In this document: positions 40,700-48,774 of the stretch, piece by piece | Layout of the letters: every line of letters begins with the position of its first letter | Numbering within the stretch: position 1 is the stretch's first letter | NCBI GenBank assembly: GCA_022768465.1 | Contig: JALELZ010000021.1 | Location: 1-64,000 of the forward strand | Length of the DNA: 64,000 nt | Direction: 5' to 3' | From: Lachnospiraceae bacterium | GTDB lineage: Bacteria > Bacillota > Clostridia > Lachnospirales > Lachnospiraceae | Position numbers and translations under genes: made by a program | The notes under the pieces: model-generated | The model's input: only the letters and a program-made list of their open reading frames with translations | Told to the model about the DNA's origin: nothing | The model's database searches: none

Positions 40700-42505
40700 C
40701 TATATCTTTATCCACATAGCCGGCCTTATACAATTACTTGTATAATTCACAAGAAATCCTATATTAACAGCTGTTCCGTAATAATCGACATTGGACGCAT
40801 GTACCTCGTCCGAGCCCGGGGTTCTGAGCCACCATGCCGTATAACCTGTACCCGCCACATAAGCTCTTTTTCCGAGTGCTTCCTTGCCTGCCAATGCCTG
40901 TCTTTTAAATCGATCATCAAAATAGAACTCAGCCTCGTCTATATTTAATAAAAAGACCTTGTCTTTTGTATCATTTCCACCGTTTACCCTGTTAAAATAG
41001 TTATCCGGATTTCTGAGCGGAGTCTCAAGTATATGCTCACGTTCATCCTCTGTAAAAGCTGTCTTTATAAACTCCTCATTAAGCCATTTCCTGATAGAAC
41101 TCGTTTCCCAGGTAGTTTTTTCATAGCTTGCATTATAATTTTTAGAATCTATGCACTCTTTTGTAATAATAAGTGCCTCGTTATCCACTGTTGAGAGCAC
41201 TTCCCACACTATCGGGCTCTTGTCTCTGCCATAATGTCCGAAGCTAAGCTCCCCATCATCAGATATAATATTATCCTTTGTACCCGTTTCTTCTGCTTCG
41301 TCATCAAAATCAAGCTCAAGCTCCACGAAAATATCCTCAGCCTCTTTTTTTAAATGCTTTTTCTTATACTCTAAGAATGCCGCAATGCAGTTGTGACTCT
41401 TATTTTCAATAGCCAGCTTAAGATATTGTTCTATCCTTTCTTCACTGCAGTCATTTCCCAAAAATCCTATGCAGTCAGCATCATCCTGAATTATATATAC
41501 AGGCATCAGGTCTCTTTTTCGATAGAAATACTCAGCATTATGAAGGCCGCGTCTCAGTTTTCCCGCACTGATATGAGCTCCGCAGAAAGGACAGGTTAAT
41601 ACCTCTTCTGCAATAGCCTTAAGCTGCGATTTTATCCCGCAGAAGCTGATTTCCTTACCGCATGAACCACAGCTGAAAATGTCTCCGTCCGGCATATCAC
41701 AGTTAAGCTCAGAAATACACAGCTCTCCTTTTTTAACGCTATAGCTGTATACAGCACCAAAGGTCTGTTCCTCCGGATCAACTATAACCCCGGGTCTGTC
41801 ACCCTGTCCCTGCTTAACTATGCTTTCTACAGTTATCTCAAAGTCGCCCTTTTTTACTGCCGCCTTCTTCTTTGCTATAGCTATCATCTGCTCAAGAATA
41901 AACTCTGTTTCCTCATGAGCTCTGGTGTAGTTATTATCATATCCGTAATGGCTGTATGCAACAAGCTTTACGCTGTGAAGCCTCGTATCATCTTCAAGGC
42001 GCTTTGCAGCGCCGTCAGCATCCATAATAAGCTCTATGCGCTCTATATCATGCGCCTTGCCTTCGGCTGAATTCCTGGTGCTGCCGTTATCGCCTGCCAT
42101 ATTATTAGTTTTTTCTAATTCATCAGTAAGCGAGATTCCGATTTCCTCTCCCGGATTAAGCCATATCCTTATATTGCCGTTATCACCGCAGGCGCCGTCT
42201 ACTTTGCTTATGATAGTGCTAAGATCAGACTGCTCATCTGCTGAGATCTCTGCACAGCAGATTCCGGCATCCGAAAGCACCTTGCTGGCAATACTCTCTT
42301 TTTTGTCGGACCCCGCTATATGATCACTCTCAAGCCTCGCACCTTTTATCAGCTGCTTAAGTCTCACTATATCGGCATCTCCGCCTGTCAATATTGAAAA
42401 CTCCTTAACATTATCTCCGCCAAGATATATTGTCAGATCTATCTCGCCTTCGGAGGTCTCTCTCAAACCGAAGGCTGTATCCCTGTTATAATGTGAAAAA
42501 TCCAT
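40700..42505 (-). CDS. TerD-like/zinc-ribbon/DUF6273-like multidomain protein
   Basis: N-term beta-rich ISLTDELEK...ELIMDADGAA...LHSVKLVAYSHYG region; CGSCGKE...CPFCGAH zinc ribbon; C-term TTWETSSIRKWLNEEFIKTAFTEDEREHI...WWLRTPG...IRPAMWIKI. Confidence 0.6.
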   Translation of the reverse strand: MDFSHYNRDTAFGLRETSEGEIDLTIYLGGDNVKEFSILTGGDADIVRLKQLIKGARLESDHIAGSDKKESIASKVLSDAGICCAEISADEQSDLSTIISKVDGACGDNGNIRIWLNPGEEIGISLTDELEKTNNMAGDNGSTRNSAEGKAHDIERIELIMDADGAAKRLEDDTRLHSVKLVAYSHYGYDNNYTRAHEETEFILEQMIAIAKKKAAVKKGDFEITVESIVKQGQGDRPGVIVDPEEQTFGAVYSYSVKKGELCISELNCDMPDGDIFSCGSCGKEISFCGIKSQLKAIAEEVLTCPFCGAHISAGKLRRGLHNAEYFYRKRDLMPVYIIQDDADCIGFLGNDCSEERIEQYLKLAIENKSHNCIAAFLEYKKKHLKKEAEDIFVELELDFDDEAEETGTKDNIISDDGELSFGHYGRDKSPIVWEVLSTVDNEALIITKECIDSKNYNASYEKTTWETSSIRKWLNEEFIKTAFTEDEREHILETPLRNPDNYFNRVNGGNDTKDKVFLLNIDEAEFYFDDRFKRQALAGKEALGKRAYVAGTGYTAWWLRTPGSDEVHASNVDYYGTAVNIGFLVNYTSNCIRPAMWIKI

Positions 42506-42542: not shown

Positions 42543-44123
42543 TTAAATACCGAGATCGCTAAGCTCCGAAATAATCTCCTGCTGACGCTCGTAGAATAAC
42601 AGCTCTTTATTGTGTGCAAAATATTCATCACAGCCGTAACGACTTATAAACTGAGCTGAAAATTTATTCTTCGTGAGTTCAGTGACGAATATAAGTATCT
42701 CCTGCCCGTCTGTAAATGCCGCATCACAGAACTCAAAGGCATTTTTAAGCTCATCCTTGGTTTCTGCTACCTGTTCCTTAAACGATCCGAGCCTGCTTGC
42801 GTAATATGTCTTTAAGATCCCGATCGCCTCTTTTTTATCAGTAATACCAGCAAGCATTGACTGAAGCTCCTTTAAAGCAGCTATCGTAAGGTCATATTCT
42901 CTGCGCTTTTCCTCTGACAAGCCTGCTGCCTTTTCTATTTTGCTCTTTTCATTAATAATACTGTCCGCAAACCTTTCTGCTATGTCTGCCGGAAGTATTG
43001 CTGCATTTTCGCCTGCTAATGCGCCTCCCATATTAGCTGAAAGCGAAGGGTCGGCTGAACGCATATCTGCACCGGCTCTTTCCGTAAGCTCTTCCTTTAT
43101 GTCTCCGATATGATTTTTCAGCGCCTTCATAACATTTTCAGTTATTATGATATCTCTGACATCTCCGGTCACTCCGTAAATGATAAGCCCCAGCAGTGAA
43201 TGCCTCTCATCAAACTTTGCTTCTTTTGCACGCTCTACAATGCCCGGCGCAGCATTTCCCTTAAGGATATCAGGTATCTGATAATCGCTTCTGTACTTTG
43301 CAAAAAGCTCATAGTATGCTGCAAAATCCTCTGCAATATGCGGCTCCTGAATATACTGAGCTATCAGACTGAGATCTACCTTTATGTCATTCTTTTCATA
43401 GTATGTGATCATTTCGCTTAAGTCTTCCCAACCTCTTGCGGTAACAAAGAATTTACCCTCAACTGTAGTCTCGACCTTATAGAAATTACTCTTTTTTATC
43501 TCAAGATAACTTAGTATTGACTGATGAACTCTCTTATTCAGAGCATACTCCTGCCATGCCTTATAATCAGGCTCAACATCTATTCTCTTTAATCTGTCCC
43601 AGGTCGCAATGTCATATTCCCGAACAGATTTATTGTACTCCGGCGGATTTCCGGCAGTCACCACGATCCATCCGTCCGGCACTCTGTGGCGCCCGAATAT
43701 TTTATACTGCAAAAACTGCAGCATTACAGGTGCCAAGGTCTCCGAAACGCAGTTTATTTCATCAAGAAAAAGTATTCCTTCCTTCTTTCCGCTCTGCTCT
43801 ATCATATCGTATACCGATGCTATTATTTCACTCATGGTATACTCGGACACTTCATACTCAGTTCCTCCGTAGTTCTTCCTTGTTATAAACGGAAGTCCGA
43901 GCGCTGATTGTCTGGTGTGGTGAGTCATCGAATATGATACAAGTGCAACGCCAAGCTCCTGTGCTATCTGCTCCATTATGGCTGTTTTTCCTATGCCAGG
44001 AGGGCCCATAAGAAACACCGGGCGCTGACGCTCTATCGGAATAGCATAGTTTCCGAATTCATCTCTTGTAAAATATACCGTCATGGCATTTTTAATCTGT
44101 TCTTTTGCATCCTTTATGTTCAT
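42543..44123 (-). CDS. MoxR-like AAA+ ATPase
   Basis: PVFLMGPPGIGKTAIMEQIAQEL, GILFLDEINCVSETLAPVMLQFLQ, VVTAGNPPEYNKSV. Confidence 0.9.
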   Translation of the reverse strand: MNIKDAKEQIKNAMTVYFTRDEFGNYAIPIERQRPVFLMGPPGIGKTAIMEQIAQELGVALVSYSMTHHTRQSALGLPFITRKNYGGTEYEVSEYTMSEIIASVYDMIEQSGKKEGILFLDEINCVSETLAPVMLQFLQYKIFGRHRVPDGWIVVTAGNPPEYNKSVREYDIATWDRLKRIDVEPDYKAWQEYALNKRVHQSILSYLEIKKSNFYKVETTVEGKFFVTARGWEDLSEMITYYEKNDIKVDLSLIAQYIQEPHIAEDFAAYYELFAKYRSDYQIPDILKGNAAPGIVERAKEAKFDERHSLLGLIIYGVTGDVRDIIITENVMKALKNHIGDIKEELTERAGADMRSADPSLSANMGGALAGENAAILPADIAERFADSIINEKSKIEKAAGLSEEKRREYDLTIAALKELQSMLAGITDKKEAIGILKTYYASRLGSFKEQVAETKDELKNAFEFCDAAFTDGQEILIFVTELTKNKFSAQFISRYGCDEYFAHNKELLFYERQQEIISELSDLGI

Positions 44124-44239
44124 GTATCTTTCCTCGGAATACCAAAAATTTCCTTTAACTTTATGATTACGTTTATAATTCCTTTAGTCACACTCTGATT
44201 TTTACCGTAATGCTTACACTAATTTGTCATTGTCACAGC

Positions 44240-45907
44240 TCAGATCTCTTCGCTCTCAAGAACCAGCTTTATAGCCCAGACCGGCACATCAGGATTGTTA
44301 TATTCATCATCTACAAATACAAATGCAGTTTGATATTCAGGCTGATGCGCCGGGAATACTCCGTATCCGTCAGTAAAATAAATAAGCCCTTTCAGATTTG
44401 TAAATTCATGCTTCTTTATACGTTCATCCACATATTCAAAAACAGGTCTGAAATCCGTGCCGCCGAAGCCCTTTAGCTCCATGTGTTCAATATAATCATC
44501 GAATTCCTCAGGTGAGGTGATTTTTTTCGCTTCCTGGATCTCTGCATCACACTGTATTATGTGAATATTTATCTTCGAGAAAAAACTCTCTCTTTCGCTT
44601 AGTATATTATAGGTCTTTGTCACAAATTTCTGCACCAAGGGTCCGGATACGGAACCTGAGGTATCTATGGCAATGACAAATTCCTTTATCTTCATTTCTT
44701 CTTTATACTCTAACGGTTCAATAAGCGGCATTTTCTCATAAAGCTCCATACCGTAGGTATAAAAAATGTAGTCAAATTCATCATCATTTACCTTAAGTGT
44801 TTCTCCAAGCGCCGCAAAACGTCTTAAGAATGCCGAATAATCATAGCGCTCACGATTTACGGCATTGAGGCTCTGCATAAGTCCGCCCTTTTTATCTCCG
44901 ATTTCCTTTGAAAAGGTCTCAAGATCCGTCTGCATTTCTTTAGCTATATCATCCCAATGCTTCTCAAGATCACTTCTGCTCTCGTCCGCATCATCCGGCG
45001 ATGCTGCCTCATTTAAGGCATTTTTTTCATCATCCCCATCTTCAGGCTCTTCCTTTTGCTCTTCTTCGGATCTATTGGTATTTTCTTCTCTTCTTTCTTC
45101 TTTCTTTTCCTCGGAGCGGCTGTCATCCTCATGCCGCTTATCATCAGCACCTTCCTCTCGCTTTTCGACAGTGCTTTCGGCATCGTCGATTTCTTCCTTA
45201 GGTGCATACCAGTCTGTATGATCATCGTTGGTAAAGAGCGACATCATACGGATATATTCTTCTGTTGTTGGTGGATTTTCCTTTAGATAATGGTAGATCT
45301 TCTCAGCTGACATAAGCTTAACTTCTGCTCTAAGCTTTTCTATATCTGCCTGCTGATTTTTTTCTCTGATAGCTTTGGTACAGCTTAAGTGAAGATCGGT
45401 AATAGCATTTTCTACTGCAATATCACATGCCAAATTCCATAGCCCCTGATCCATCTCAGGGCCTACAAAAGCATGATGAAATACGCAGTGAAATATCTCA
45501 TGGAGATAATCTCTTGCCGGGTTTTCCCTGCACTCTCTGTAGCGCTTAAGCACATACACCGGATCATAGTAAAGATTCTCTCCGTCAGTAGCCATTGTTC
45601 CCTGATACTGTGAAAGCCTCAGGCTGCCGATTGCAGAATCAAGAAATCTCAGATTTACCTGCAATGTATTTCTTGCAAGCGTTATCACCTCACGTCCGAG
45701 TCTGTCTATTTTAGCATTAGTTTCGTCAAGAGCTCTTTGAGCCTCATCATATGAACGATGAGCGCCGCAGCCTCTGAGGCCCAGAAATGCATTCTGCGCC
45801 TCATGGCAGTCAAGCTGAGTACCGTCTCTGTGTCCTCTTACTATGCCGTCTTCAATGTATGCACCGGCACCGCCGTTATTATCATATTGTGTATTAATAT
45901 CCGACAT
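44240..45907 (-). CDS. VWA-like (DUF2201-type) metallopeptidase-related protein
   Basis: DYLHEIFHCVFHHAF; C-terminal EFVIAIDTSGSVSGPLVQKF MIDAS and GFGGTDFRPVFEYV. Confidence 0.9.
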   Translation of the reverse strand: MSDINTQYDNNGGAGAYIEDGIVRGHRDGTQLDCHEAQNAFLGLRGCGAHRSYDEAQRALDETNAKIDRLGREVITLARNTLQVNLRFLDSAIGSLRLSQYQGTMATDGENLYYDPVYVLKRYRECRENPARDYLHEIFHCVFHHAFVGPEMDQGLWNLACDIAVENAITDLHLSCTKAIREKNQQADIEKLRAEVKLMSAEKIYHYLKENPPTTEEYIRMMSLFTNDDHTDWYAPKEEIDDAESTVEKREEGADDKRHEDDSRSEEKKEERREENTNRSEEEQKEEPEDGDDEKNALNEAASPDDADESRSDLEKHWDDIAKEMQTDLETFSKEIGDKKGGLMQSLNAVNRERYDYSAFLRRFAALGETLKVNDDEFDYIFYTYGMELYEKMPLIEPLEYKEEMKIKEFVIAIDTSGSVSGPLVQKFVTKTYNILSERESFFSKINIHIIQCDAEIQEAKKITSPEEFDDYIEHMELKGFGGTDFRPVFEYVDERIKKHEFTNLKGLIYFTDGYGVFPAHQPEYQTAFVFVDDEYNNPDVPVWAIKLVLESEEI

Positions 45908-46061: not shown

Positions 46062-46274
46062 CTATGCTTCAAATATCTCGTCTGTAGTGCTGAAAAAGCG
46101 GTTAAACTCATCCGTATACGCTCCGGCGCTTTTATCTATGGCTTTTTCAAAGCCGACAAGCGCCGCAAACGGTGCAAACTGAGCAGCCCTGTCATGCCTG
46201 GACATATGCTTTCTCGCATAGGATACATGATGCGGCAAAAGAATAATATCCTTATAGTCATTAGCTGCATTCAT
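46062..46274 (-). CDS. YolD-like protein
   Basis: 70 aa; LLPHHVSYARKHMSRHDRAAQFAPFAAL; 4-bp overlap with Y-family polymerase gene. Confidence 0.7.
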   Translation of the reverse strand: MNAANDYKDIILLPHHVSYARKHMSRHDRAAQFAPFAALVGFEKAIDKSAGAYTDEFNRFFSTTDEIFEA

Positions 46275-47800
46275 GCTTTGTGCCCTCCTATCTGTGCGTT
46301 GCGTTCCCTTGCTGTCGCACCCTCCAGGAAATTCATCCCCCTTAGTACAGCGTTTTTACCGTATCTTTTCTTTATACTGAGTATAGATTCCTGTATGCGC
46401 GTATCTTTTTCTGTATCAATATCTCCTGATACATCTATATTTTTAAGCCTGTCAGCTTCCGCGTCAAAAAGGCCAATTTGCCTGAAGGCATTTTTTTCCT
46501 GTGCCGTTGATTTTCCGGCTGTATGATTAGCAACGACGCACATCCGTCTTATCAGAAGCTTTCGATCAACTATATCATCAAAAAGCTCTGTAACGGCGGC
46601 AAGAAGCCTGGCTGATGATGCAGTATATGCTCCTGTATTGATGCTTCCATGAGCTGATTTCGGAATCACTCTGCCATAATGATCTACCGTAAGCTCGCCT
46701 CTATAGCTCTTCATGATTTCTTTATCCTTTGCATTCTCTGTATCATAGCCCACAGTAAGCACTAACTGATTGCACACAAGTCCTTTCTCCACTAATTCAA
46801 GTGCTAATGCATCCGTCATTTCCCGTATAACTATCTTTGCTTTTTCAAATGTATAAGGTTCAGTTAATACCTGTCCGGAGCTTAGGCTTGAGGATTCGGG
46901 TACATAGCTTTTTATATCCGATATGGTACACGGTTCGTAGCCCCATGCATGATCAATGAGCAGCTCTGCATTAATACCGAAAAGCCTGTATAAAAGCTCT
47001 TCATTATAAAAATCTGCAGGCTTTCCCATAGAACATCTGGCTATATCCCCCATCGTATAAATTCCATATGCAGATAATCTTTTCGATATGCCTCTGCCGA
47101 CTCTCCAAAAATCAGTAAGCGGTTTATGCGTCCACAGTTTCTGTCTATAGCTAAGTTCATTAAGCTCTGCTATCCTGATACCGTTCTTGTCAGCTTTTAT
47201 ATGCTTTGCAACTATATCCATAGCTATTTTGCACAGATAAAGATTTGTACCTATGCCTGCCGTAGCTGTAATGCCCGTAGTCTCCAAAACATCTGATATA
47301 AGAGTCTTCGTAAGCTCTTTTGCAGTACAGTCATAAAGCCTGAGATACGAAGTAACATCTATAAATACCTCATCGATCGAATATACATGTATATCCTCCG
47401 GTGATATATATTTTAAATATATCCCGTATATTTTACTGCTTACTTCTATATAGCGTGCCATCCTCGGCGGTGCAATGATATAATCAACAGCTAATTCAGG
47501 GTTTTCATAAAGCTCCAAAGCTTTGTACGAGCTTCCTTTAAGCACATGTCCCGGCACAGCACTTCGCCTTTTGGCATTTATCTCCTTTACTCCTTGAACG
47601 ACTTCAAAAAGTCTGGCTCTGCCTGAAATGCCGTAGGCCTTCAGCGTTGGTGTGACTGCAAGACAAATTGTCTTATCCGTGCGGCTGCTGTCAGCCACCA
47701 CGAGATTGACTTCGAGCGGCTCAAGTCCTCTGTCTACACACTCTACCGATGCATAAAAAGACTTAAGATCAATAGCTATATAAACCTTCTCTCCATCCAT
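46271..47800 (-). CDS. Y-family DNA polymerase (DinB/UmuC type)
   Basis: YIAIDLKSFYASVECVDRGLEPLEVNLVVAD, VYSIDEVFIDVTSYL, TATAGIGTNLYLCKIAMDIVAKH motifs. Confidence 0.95.
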   Translation of the reverse strand: MDGEKVYIAIDLKSFYASVECVDRGLEPLEVNLVVADSSRTDKTICLAVTPTLKAYGISGRARLFEVVQGVKEINAKRRSAVPGHVLKGSSYKALELYENPELAVDYIIAPPRMARYIEVSSKIYGIYLKYISPEDIHVYSIDEVFIDVTSYLRLYDCTAKELTKTLISDVLETTGITATAGIGTNLYLCKIAMDIVAKHIKADKNGIRIAELNELSYRQKLWTHKPLTDFWRVGRGISKRLSAYGIYTMGDIARCSMGKPADFYNEELLYRLFGINAELLIDHAWGYEPCTISDIKSYVPESSSLSSGQVLTEPYTFEKAKIVIREMTDALALELVEKGLVCNQLVLTVGYDTENAKDKEIMKSYRGELTVDHYGRVIPKSAHGSINTGAYTASSARLLAAVTELFDDIVDRKLLIRRMCVVANHTAGKSTAQEKNAFRQIGLFDAEADRLKNIDVSGDIDTEKDTRIQESILSIKKRYGKNAVLRGMNFLEGATARERNAQIGGHKA

Positions 47801-47922
47801 ATCAAAACACCTCCGGCTTCTCTGCTTAAGGGCTTTCGGTACACGACATTATGCTATGCTCCGATGTAAGCCTTGCCGTGTACCGTACAGAAACTCTGAA
47901 CTCCTTTCCTTTTAGTAACGTC

Positions 47923-47951
47923 ATATTACTATCACTTTAAGTGAATGTCAA
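47923..47951 (-). promoter_or_regulatory. Y-family polymerase promoter with operator in spacer
   Basis: Minus strand TTGACA (47946-47951), N17, TATTAC/TAATAT-type -10 (TAATAT, 47923-47928); operator 1 TCACTTTAAGTGA 47932-47944. Confidence 0.8.
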
Positions 47952-47963
47952 CACTAAAAGTGA
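47951..47963. promoter_or_regulatory. Operator 2 (ACACTAAAAGTGA; reverse TCACTTTTAGTGT)
   Basis: 13-bp match to operator 1, abutting/overlapping the polymerase -35. Confidence 0.75.
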
Positions 47964-47970
47964 TATCTCC

Positions 47971-47999
47971 TTGCAATAGTTTCACCTTAAGTGTATTAT
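47971..47999 (+). promoter_or_regulatory. XRE regulator promoter with operator 3 in spacer
   Basis: TTGCAA (47971-47976), N17, TATTAT (47994-47999); operator 3 TCACCTTAAGTGT 47982-47994. Confidence 0.75.
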
Positions 48000-48152: not shown

Positions 48153-48563
48153 ATGCCGGATAAGGACTTCAATACTATATTTTCAAGCCGTCTCAGATTT
48201 TTTCTTAAGAAAACTTCTATGACTCAGGCAGAGCTGGCCAAAAGATTAAATGTAGGCACAACCTCCGTCTACAACTGGTGTGCCGGAATAAAGACTCCGC
48301 GCATGGATAAAATAGACGCTATGTGCGATTTGTTTTGCTGCAGCCGCTCAGAGCTTATGGAAGAGATGTCTGTCGGCGCGAAAGCTTCCGGCGGTTACTA
48401 TGCAGATCCCGAAACTGCTGAGATTGCCCAGGAGATATTCGAAAATCGTGAGCTTCGCATACTCTTTGATGCTGCCAAGCATGCTGCCCCGGAAGACCTT
48501 AAGGTTGCGCATGACATGCTCCTTGCACTGAAGAAGAAGGAACAGGGTGGCTTCGATGCCTGA
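48153..48563 (+). CDS. XRE-family transcriptional regulator
   Basis: KKTSMTQAELAKRLNVGTTSVYNWCAGIKTPRMDKIDAMCDLFCCSRSELM HTH. Confidence 0.92.
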   Translation: MPDKDFNTIFSSRLRFFLKKTSMTQAELAKRLNVGTTSVYNWCAGIKTPRMDKIDAMCDLFCCSRSELMEEMSVGAKASGGYYADPETAEIAQEIFENRELRILFDAAKHAAPEDLKVAHDMLLALKKKEQGGFDA

Positions 48564-48774
48564 TATATTTGTCAAGCTTATAGATCTGCCTCTCAGTATA
48601 AACGGGCTCACTACTGAAAATGACGACGGCAGCTATACTATATTTTTAAATTCACGTGCTTCCTCTGCTCAGCAGCAGGCTGCCTATGAGCATGAGCTTG
48701 AGCATATAAACGGCCTTGATTTTGGGAAGTCGGATGCAGACAAAATCGAGCAGCATACACATGCTGCCCGTTAG
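48556..48774 (+). CDS. Minimal ImmA/IrrE-like HExxH peptidase
   Basis: About 72 aa; AAYEHELEHINGLDFGKSDADKIEQHTHAA; overlaps the XRE gene end. Confidence 0.75.
   Translation: MPDIFVKLIDLPLSINGLTTENDDGSYTIFLNSRASSAQQQAAYEHELEHINGLDFGKSDADKIEQHTHAAR

Follow-up and report, generated by a model that had tools for sequence, protein, structure and literature searches.

A phage-type repressor switch very probably wired to a umuC-yolD mutasome operon in a Lachnospiraceae genome without a recognised LexA

Introduction

How is mutagenic repair switched on in Clostridia that lack LexA? The question is made directly testable by a locus on contig JALELZ010000021.1 of a Lachnospiraceae bacterium (assembly GCA_022768465.1), where what reads as a complete phage switch, comprising the repressor, three operators, both promoters and a partner gene, is placed on a host mutasome in a genome without a recognised LexA. 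We analysed positions 1 to 64,000 of this contig, hereafter the window. The initial annotation of the locus had proposed that an XRE protein co-represses the divergent polymerase gene and autoregulates its own; the phage origin of the switch, its mini-ImmA partner, the YolD-like second gene and the lack of LexA are additions of the present analysis. Judging from sequence comparisons, we conclude with high confidence that the chromosome took over a phage-type CI/ImmR-like lysogeny switch, which now governs umuC-yolD, a mutasome operon of the Pol V-like kind. This suggests that the bacterium re-used a phage switch for mutation control in a lineage mostly without the usual SOS repressor. The features of the locus, in window coordinates, are as follows.

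46062..46274, minus strand: small YolD-like protein of 70 aa, encoded by the operon's second gene; open reading frame with a 4-bp overlap with the polymerase stop
46271..47800, minus strand: UmuC-like Y-family DNA polymerase, 509 aa (PF00817 IMS, 2.8e-25; PF11799 IMS_C, 1.5e-8; phrog_1268, 5.6e-60)
47801..47917, minus strand: leader of the polymerase mRNA, containing a strong hairpin whose stem falls inside 47837-47885
47923..47951, minus strand: leftward polymerase promoter TTGACA-N17-TAATAT, from sequence
47932-47944, no strand: putative operator O1, TCACTTTAAGTGA, a dyad inside the leftward promoter spacer (rank 1, 19.4 bits)
47951-47963, no strand: putative operator O2, ACACTAAAAGTGA, against the leftward -35 (rank 2, 17.6 bits)
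47971..47999, plus strand: rightward repressor promoter TTGCAA-N17-TATTAT, from sequence
47982-47994, no strand: putative operator O3, TCACCTTAAGTGT, within the spacer of the rightward promoter (rank 3, 16.5 bits)
48153..48563, plus strand: XRE/CI-type repressor, 136 aa (PF13443, 2e-8; PF01381, 4e-7; phrog_8, 1.5e-16)
48547..48774, plus strand: mini-ImmA-like protein, 75 aa (phrog_20886, 2e-17), overlapping the repressor stop

Results

Operators embedded in two divergent promoters

Both divergent promoters are of the sigma-A type by sequence. The leftward -35, TTGACA, is the complement of 47946-47951 and its -10, TAATAT, the complement of 47923-47928; the rightward -35, TTGCAA, occupies 47971-47976 and its -10, TATTAT, 47994-47999. 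O1 is a perfect dyad about its central base and lies entirely within the 17-bp leftward spacer, O2 shares one base (47951) with the leftward -35, and O3 takes up the whole 17-bp rightward spacer, with one base (47994) in common with the -10. The three 13-mers of the initial annotation are thereby correct to the base, and so is its placement of them within the spacer, abutting the -35 and filling the opposite spacer. An imperfect dyad, TAGTAA-CGTCATA-TTACTA (window 47914-47932), was also spotted by eye; it covers the leftward -10 and the region of the start.

To score the sites we used a position weight matrix built from 17 homologous loci and excluding the 64-kb window. O1, O2 and O3 were the top three among all positions in the window, the next best being 13.8 bits at 44788 in a coding region, and their scores had per-position frequencies of 0, 3e-7 and 2e-6, respectively, over 3 million bases of an intergenic-region Markov model. 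A generic scan allowing three mismatches was not significant alone (79 matches versus 93 expected), and the operator case therefore rests on clustering and comparative evidence. Across the 1.86-Mb genome the exact consensus TCACYTTWAGTGW occurs only at the O1-O3 sites, and no regulon beyond the locus was found, matches with at most one mismatch numbering 14 against 11 for a reversed-pattern control. The regulon that the initial annotation proposed to define by a genome scan comes down, in this genome, to a single locus.

The layout follows the repressor rather than its target

From 85,462 species genomes scanned we obtained a comparison set of 17 loci (L074-L090). The nearest repressors, at 60-61% identity, lie in prophage-like regions, including one of Hungatella hathewayi, and the relatives are mostly prophage lysogeny modules with mini-ImmA or integrase-like genes close by. 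They share a common layout, with O1 inside a TTGACA-N17 promoter, O2 against the -35 and O3 in the repressor promoter. The O1-O2 spacing is 19 bp in the window and in 14 of the 17 relatives, wherever O1 is present among the relatives (16 of 16) a TTGACA-like N17 promoter surrounds it, and the rightward hexamers with their N17 spacing are identical in L075, with TATTAT and N17 also present in L076 and L077. The O2-O3 spacing is 31 bp in the window versus 40-43 bp in most relatives, a shortening of about one helical turn that may reflect helical phase. The leftward gene of most relatives is a Cro-like XRE gene, whereas in the window it is the UmuC-like polymerase with its YolD-like companion, so conservation of the layout tracks the repressor and not the target. 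Among 391 other genomes of the order, a strict operator-pair pattern that misses variants had no match.

The outer operator base varies with the repressor's recognition helix. Tyrosine at the position aligned with Tyr40 goes with an outer T in 13 of 13 loci (the window counted), and serine or threonine there goes with an outer C in all four remaining cases (L077, L086, L088, L090). Label shuffling gave 4e-4, a value uncorrected for relatedness, and because the loci are related the true significance is weaker. This covariation ties the XRE family to the O1-O3 sites and is the best computational evidence that the repressor reads them; the 17-locus set, with operator and recognition helix covarying, should also be useful for decoding XRE specificity.

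A mini-ImmA-like partner and interchangeable sensors

The repressor consists of an HTH and a short ImmR-type C-terminal segment. Its 75-aa partner carries an HExxH zinc motif (HELEH, residues 49-53) together with an invariant downstream Glu, and scores 16.8 bits against Pfam M78, under the cut-off of 22. An AlphaFold model of this protein, built with eight sequences, has a mean pLDDT of 78, and its sole credible PDB match, Deinococcus PprI/IrrE (prob 0.93, E 0.27), is suggestive of a shared fold. Since the M78 score is sub-threshold and the structural match stands at E 0.27, we refer to the predicted product as mini-ImmA-like rather than ImmA.

In the prophage mini-ImmA proteins of L074, L075, L076 and L078, HAxxH replaces HExxH. 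Proteolysis is therefore no conserved property of the mini-ImmA family, suggesting a non-proteolytic role for the HAxxH forms of phages. The repressor's HTH also occurs joined to S24 peptidase domains (L080, L084) or with a longer M78 ImmA after it (L079; PF06114, 1.6e-14 on the part scanned), which argues that sensors have been interchanged across the HTH module. Viewed as a whole, L074-L090 present one HTH/operator module whose C-terminal sensors vary between a short ImmR-type segment with mini-ImmA, an S24 peptidase and a longer ImmA.

The mutasome operon and the missing SOS repressor

The polymerase translation contains the catalytic-type motifs DLKSFYASVE and YSIDEVFIDV. The 70-aa product of the second gene has no Pfam match itself; homologues directly follow umuC in 21 of 29 relatives (phmmer, E 1e-18 to 2e-6), and its assignment as YolD-like draws on this homology and on position. 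The hairpin in the polymerase leader has a 12-bp outer stem and a folding energy of -32.3 kcal/mol (z -2.5; 3 of 200 shuffles equally good), matches no credible Rfam family, and could provide a second control layer for the polymerase.

No LexA was recognised in this genome, where the best TIGR00498 match, a phage-type XRE-S24 repressor beside its own Cro-like gene, reaches 82.9 bits and so falls under the cut-off of 110.95. LexA exceeds the cut-off in two of the 25 genus genomes and has no such match in the other 23, an absence limited by the incompleteness of the drafts. The polymerase promoter has no SOS box (GAAC-N4-GTTC, up to one mismatch), and with neither box nor LexA over the cut-off, SOS control of the polymerase was rejected. 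A second phage-type switch, in which the genes for an XRE-S24 repressor and a Cro-like XRE diverge, was seen at G000 C19:14974-15537.

A lineage-specific insertion

The polymerase family is widespread, with matches in 50 of 61 relatives, some of them weak. The XRE gene and the operator sites are absent from all 29 relatives' umuC loci inspected, and the genus's 24 other genomes yielded nothing closely homologous to the repressor; switch control of umuC as the ancestral state was rejected on the strength of those 29 loci. The CvpA gene upstream of the cassette is kept in the genus and is followed by different genes in the 11 relatives inspected, which argues that the cassette is a lineage-specific insertion, assembled or acquired there. 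The wiring of umuC to the switch is known from one genome, a draft of 33 contigs that is about 96% complete. The cassette is adjoined by a gene pair encoding an AAA ATPase and a DUF2201 VWA/metallopeptidase-like protein (window 42543-45907, minus strand), beyond which lies a DUF6273 gene (40700-42505).

Three genus relatives (L021, L024 and L026, in genomes G019, G003 and G012) carry XRE and ImmA-like genes upstream of umuC and co-oriented with it. These genes adjoin umuC in L021 and L024, and in L026 a single gene intervenes; the ImmA-like motif, read by eye, is HELGH or HEIGH. From this similar pairing the link between XRE/ImmA genes and umuC appears to recur, and by sequence the arrangement is an independent instance of it. 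Another local repressor pairing occurs in L040 (G021), where a LexA-like S24 repressor gene lies immediately downstream of umuC.

Discussion

Taken together, repression of the mutasome operon and autoregulation of the repressor are well supported as predictions. The proposal of co-repression with autoregulation made in the initial annotation gains from three lines of comparison, namely a layout kept wherever a close XRE homologue occurs, whatever the leftward gene, the covariation of operator and recognition helix, and the absence of the sites in relatives that have the polymerase without the XRE gene. A repressor dimer bound at O1 and O2 would block RNA polymerase at the umuC promoter, and repressor at O3 would limit its own transcription. 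Stress or DNA damage would then release repression, most likely through mini-ImmA acting on the repressor, and the outcome would be a LexA-independent mutagenesis switch. Occlusion, autoregulation and damage release are all modelled on known CI/ImmR biology (PMC10233336, PMC12637031). Damage-triggered release via mini-ImmA, which we infer by analogy, is the weakest step, because HAxxH partners exist and elsewhere the same HTH is accompanied by S24 domains or by an ImmA of greater length.

These observations give some weight to a working switch whose trigger is something other than mini-ImmA, be it an antirepressor supplied by a phage, infecting or resident, turnover by a housekeeping protease or superinfection cross-talk, with mini-ImmA vestigial or structural. 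We regard this as a real possibility, though somewhat below even chances: HAxxH in several relatives indicates that phages can dispense with the catalytic Glu, and the sensors have been swapped in L079, L080 and L084, but the window copy retains HELEH, the invariant downstream Glu and the overlap with the repressor gene. An unlikely reading is that the locus is a decaying prophage remnant in which repressor cassette and polymerase were left by one phage, umuC having been a lytic-side gene. Such polymerases do occur in phages (phrog_1268), and the repressor belongs to a prophage type; however, from the CvpA gene to the VWA/AAA operon no phage gene was recognised, every part is intact, and the polymerase and YolD family is found in most genus genomes and in nearby families in varied chromosomal contexts. 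That the operators are conserved by chance or used by another regulator would agree with the non-significant loose-match motif statistics of the single genome, yet the held-out matrix ranks, the fixed spacing and the helix/operator covariation over 17 loci make this highly improbable.

Returning to the captured switch as the preferred reading, we tentatively extend it to a broader idea, which at present we would sooner doubt than assert: that a LexA-lacking lineage rebuilt control of mutagenic translesion synthesis from captured mobile-element switches, placing mutation rate under phage-derived sensing. Its instances would be the CI/ImmR-type operator array with a minimal ImmA described here and the XRE and ImmA-like genes of sister species.

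Comparison with known systems

Among openly accessible papers searched we found none describing umuC under XRE/ImmA control, and several known systems share parts of the arrangement. UvrX/YqjW-YolD, the putative Gram-positive Pol V counterparts (PMC6511836), unite a Y-family polymerase and a YolD homologue within a single operon, to which the polymerase domains and gene order here correspond and the YolD-like gene probably does; the examples studied answer to LexA/SOS, whereas here neither an SOS box nor a LexA over the cut-off was found. UmuDAb/DdrR of Acinetobacter (PMC7273328) resembles our locus in its LexA-free lineage and in a dedicated repressor over divergent promoters that represses error-prone polymerases, but UmuDAb is a LexA/UmuD-type S24 protein acting at several loci, whereas the repressor here is of CI/ImmR type with one local target. 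IrrE/DdrO of Deinococcus (PMC8072749) also joins an XRE repressor to a metalloprotease in SOS-independent control of repair genes; the DdrO regulon has many genes, in contrast to three sites at one locus and a partner of mini form.

Similar in gene order are ImmR/ImmA of ICEBs1 and the ImmR/ImmA-like module of TnSmu1 (PMC10233336), in which an XRE repressor gene is likewise followed by an M78-type partner gene and which are damage-inducible in known cases (PMC10233336). The adjoining, overlapping partner gene of the ImmR/ImmA module's XRE HTH repressor is present here too, encoding a mini version of 75 aa; the predicted target is a chromosomal mutasome, whereas theirs is element excision or transfer. 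A further parallel is the prophage CI/Cro switch of Hungatella hathewayi DSM 13479 (L075), together with its kin in other Lachnospiraceae prophages: the repressor is 60% identical to ours, and the three operators, the promoters and the 19-bp O1-O2 spacing are shared, but leftward come a Cro-like XRE and phage genes where the window has umuC-yolD.
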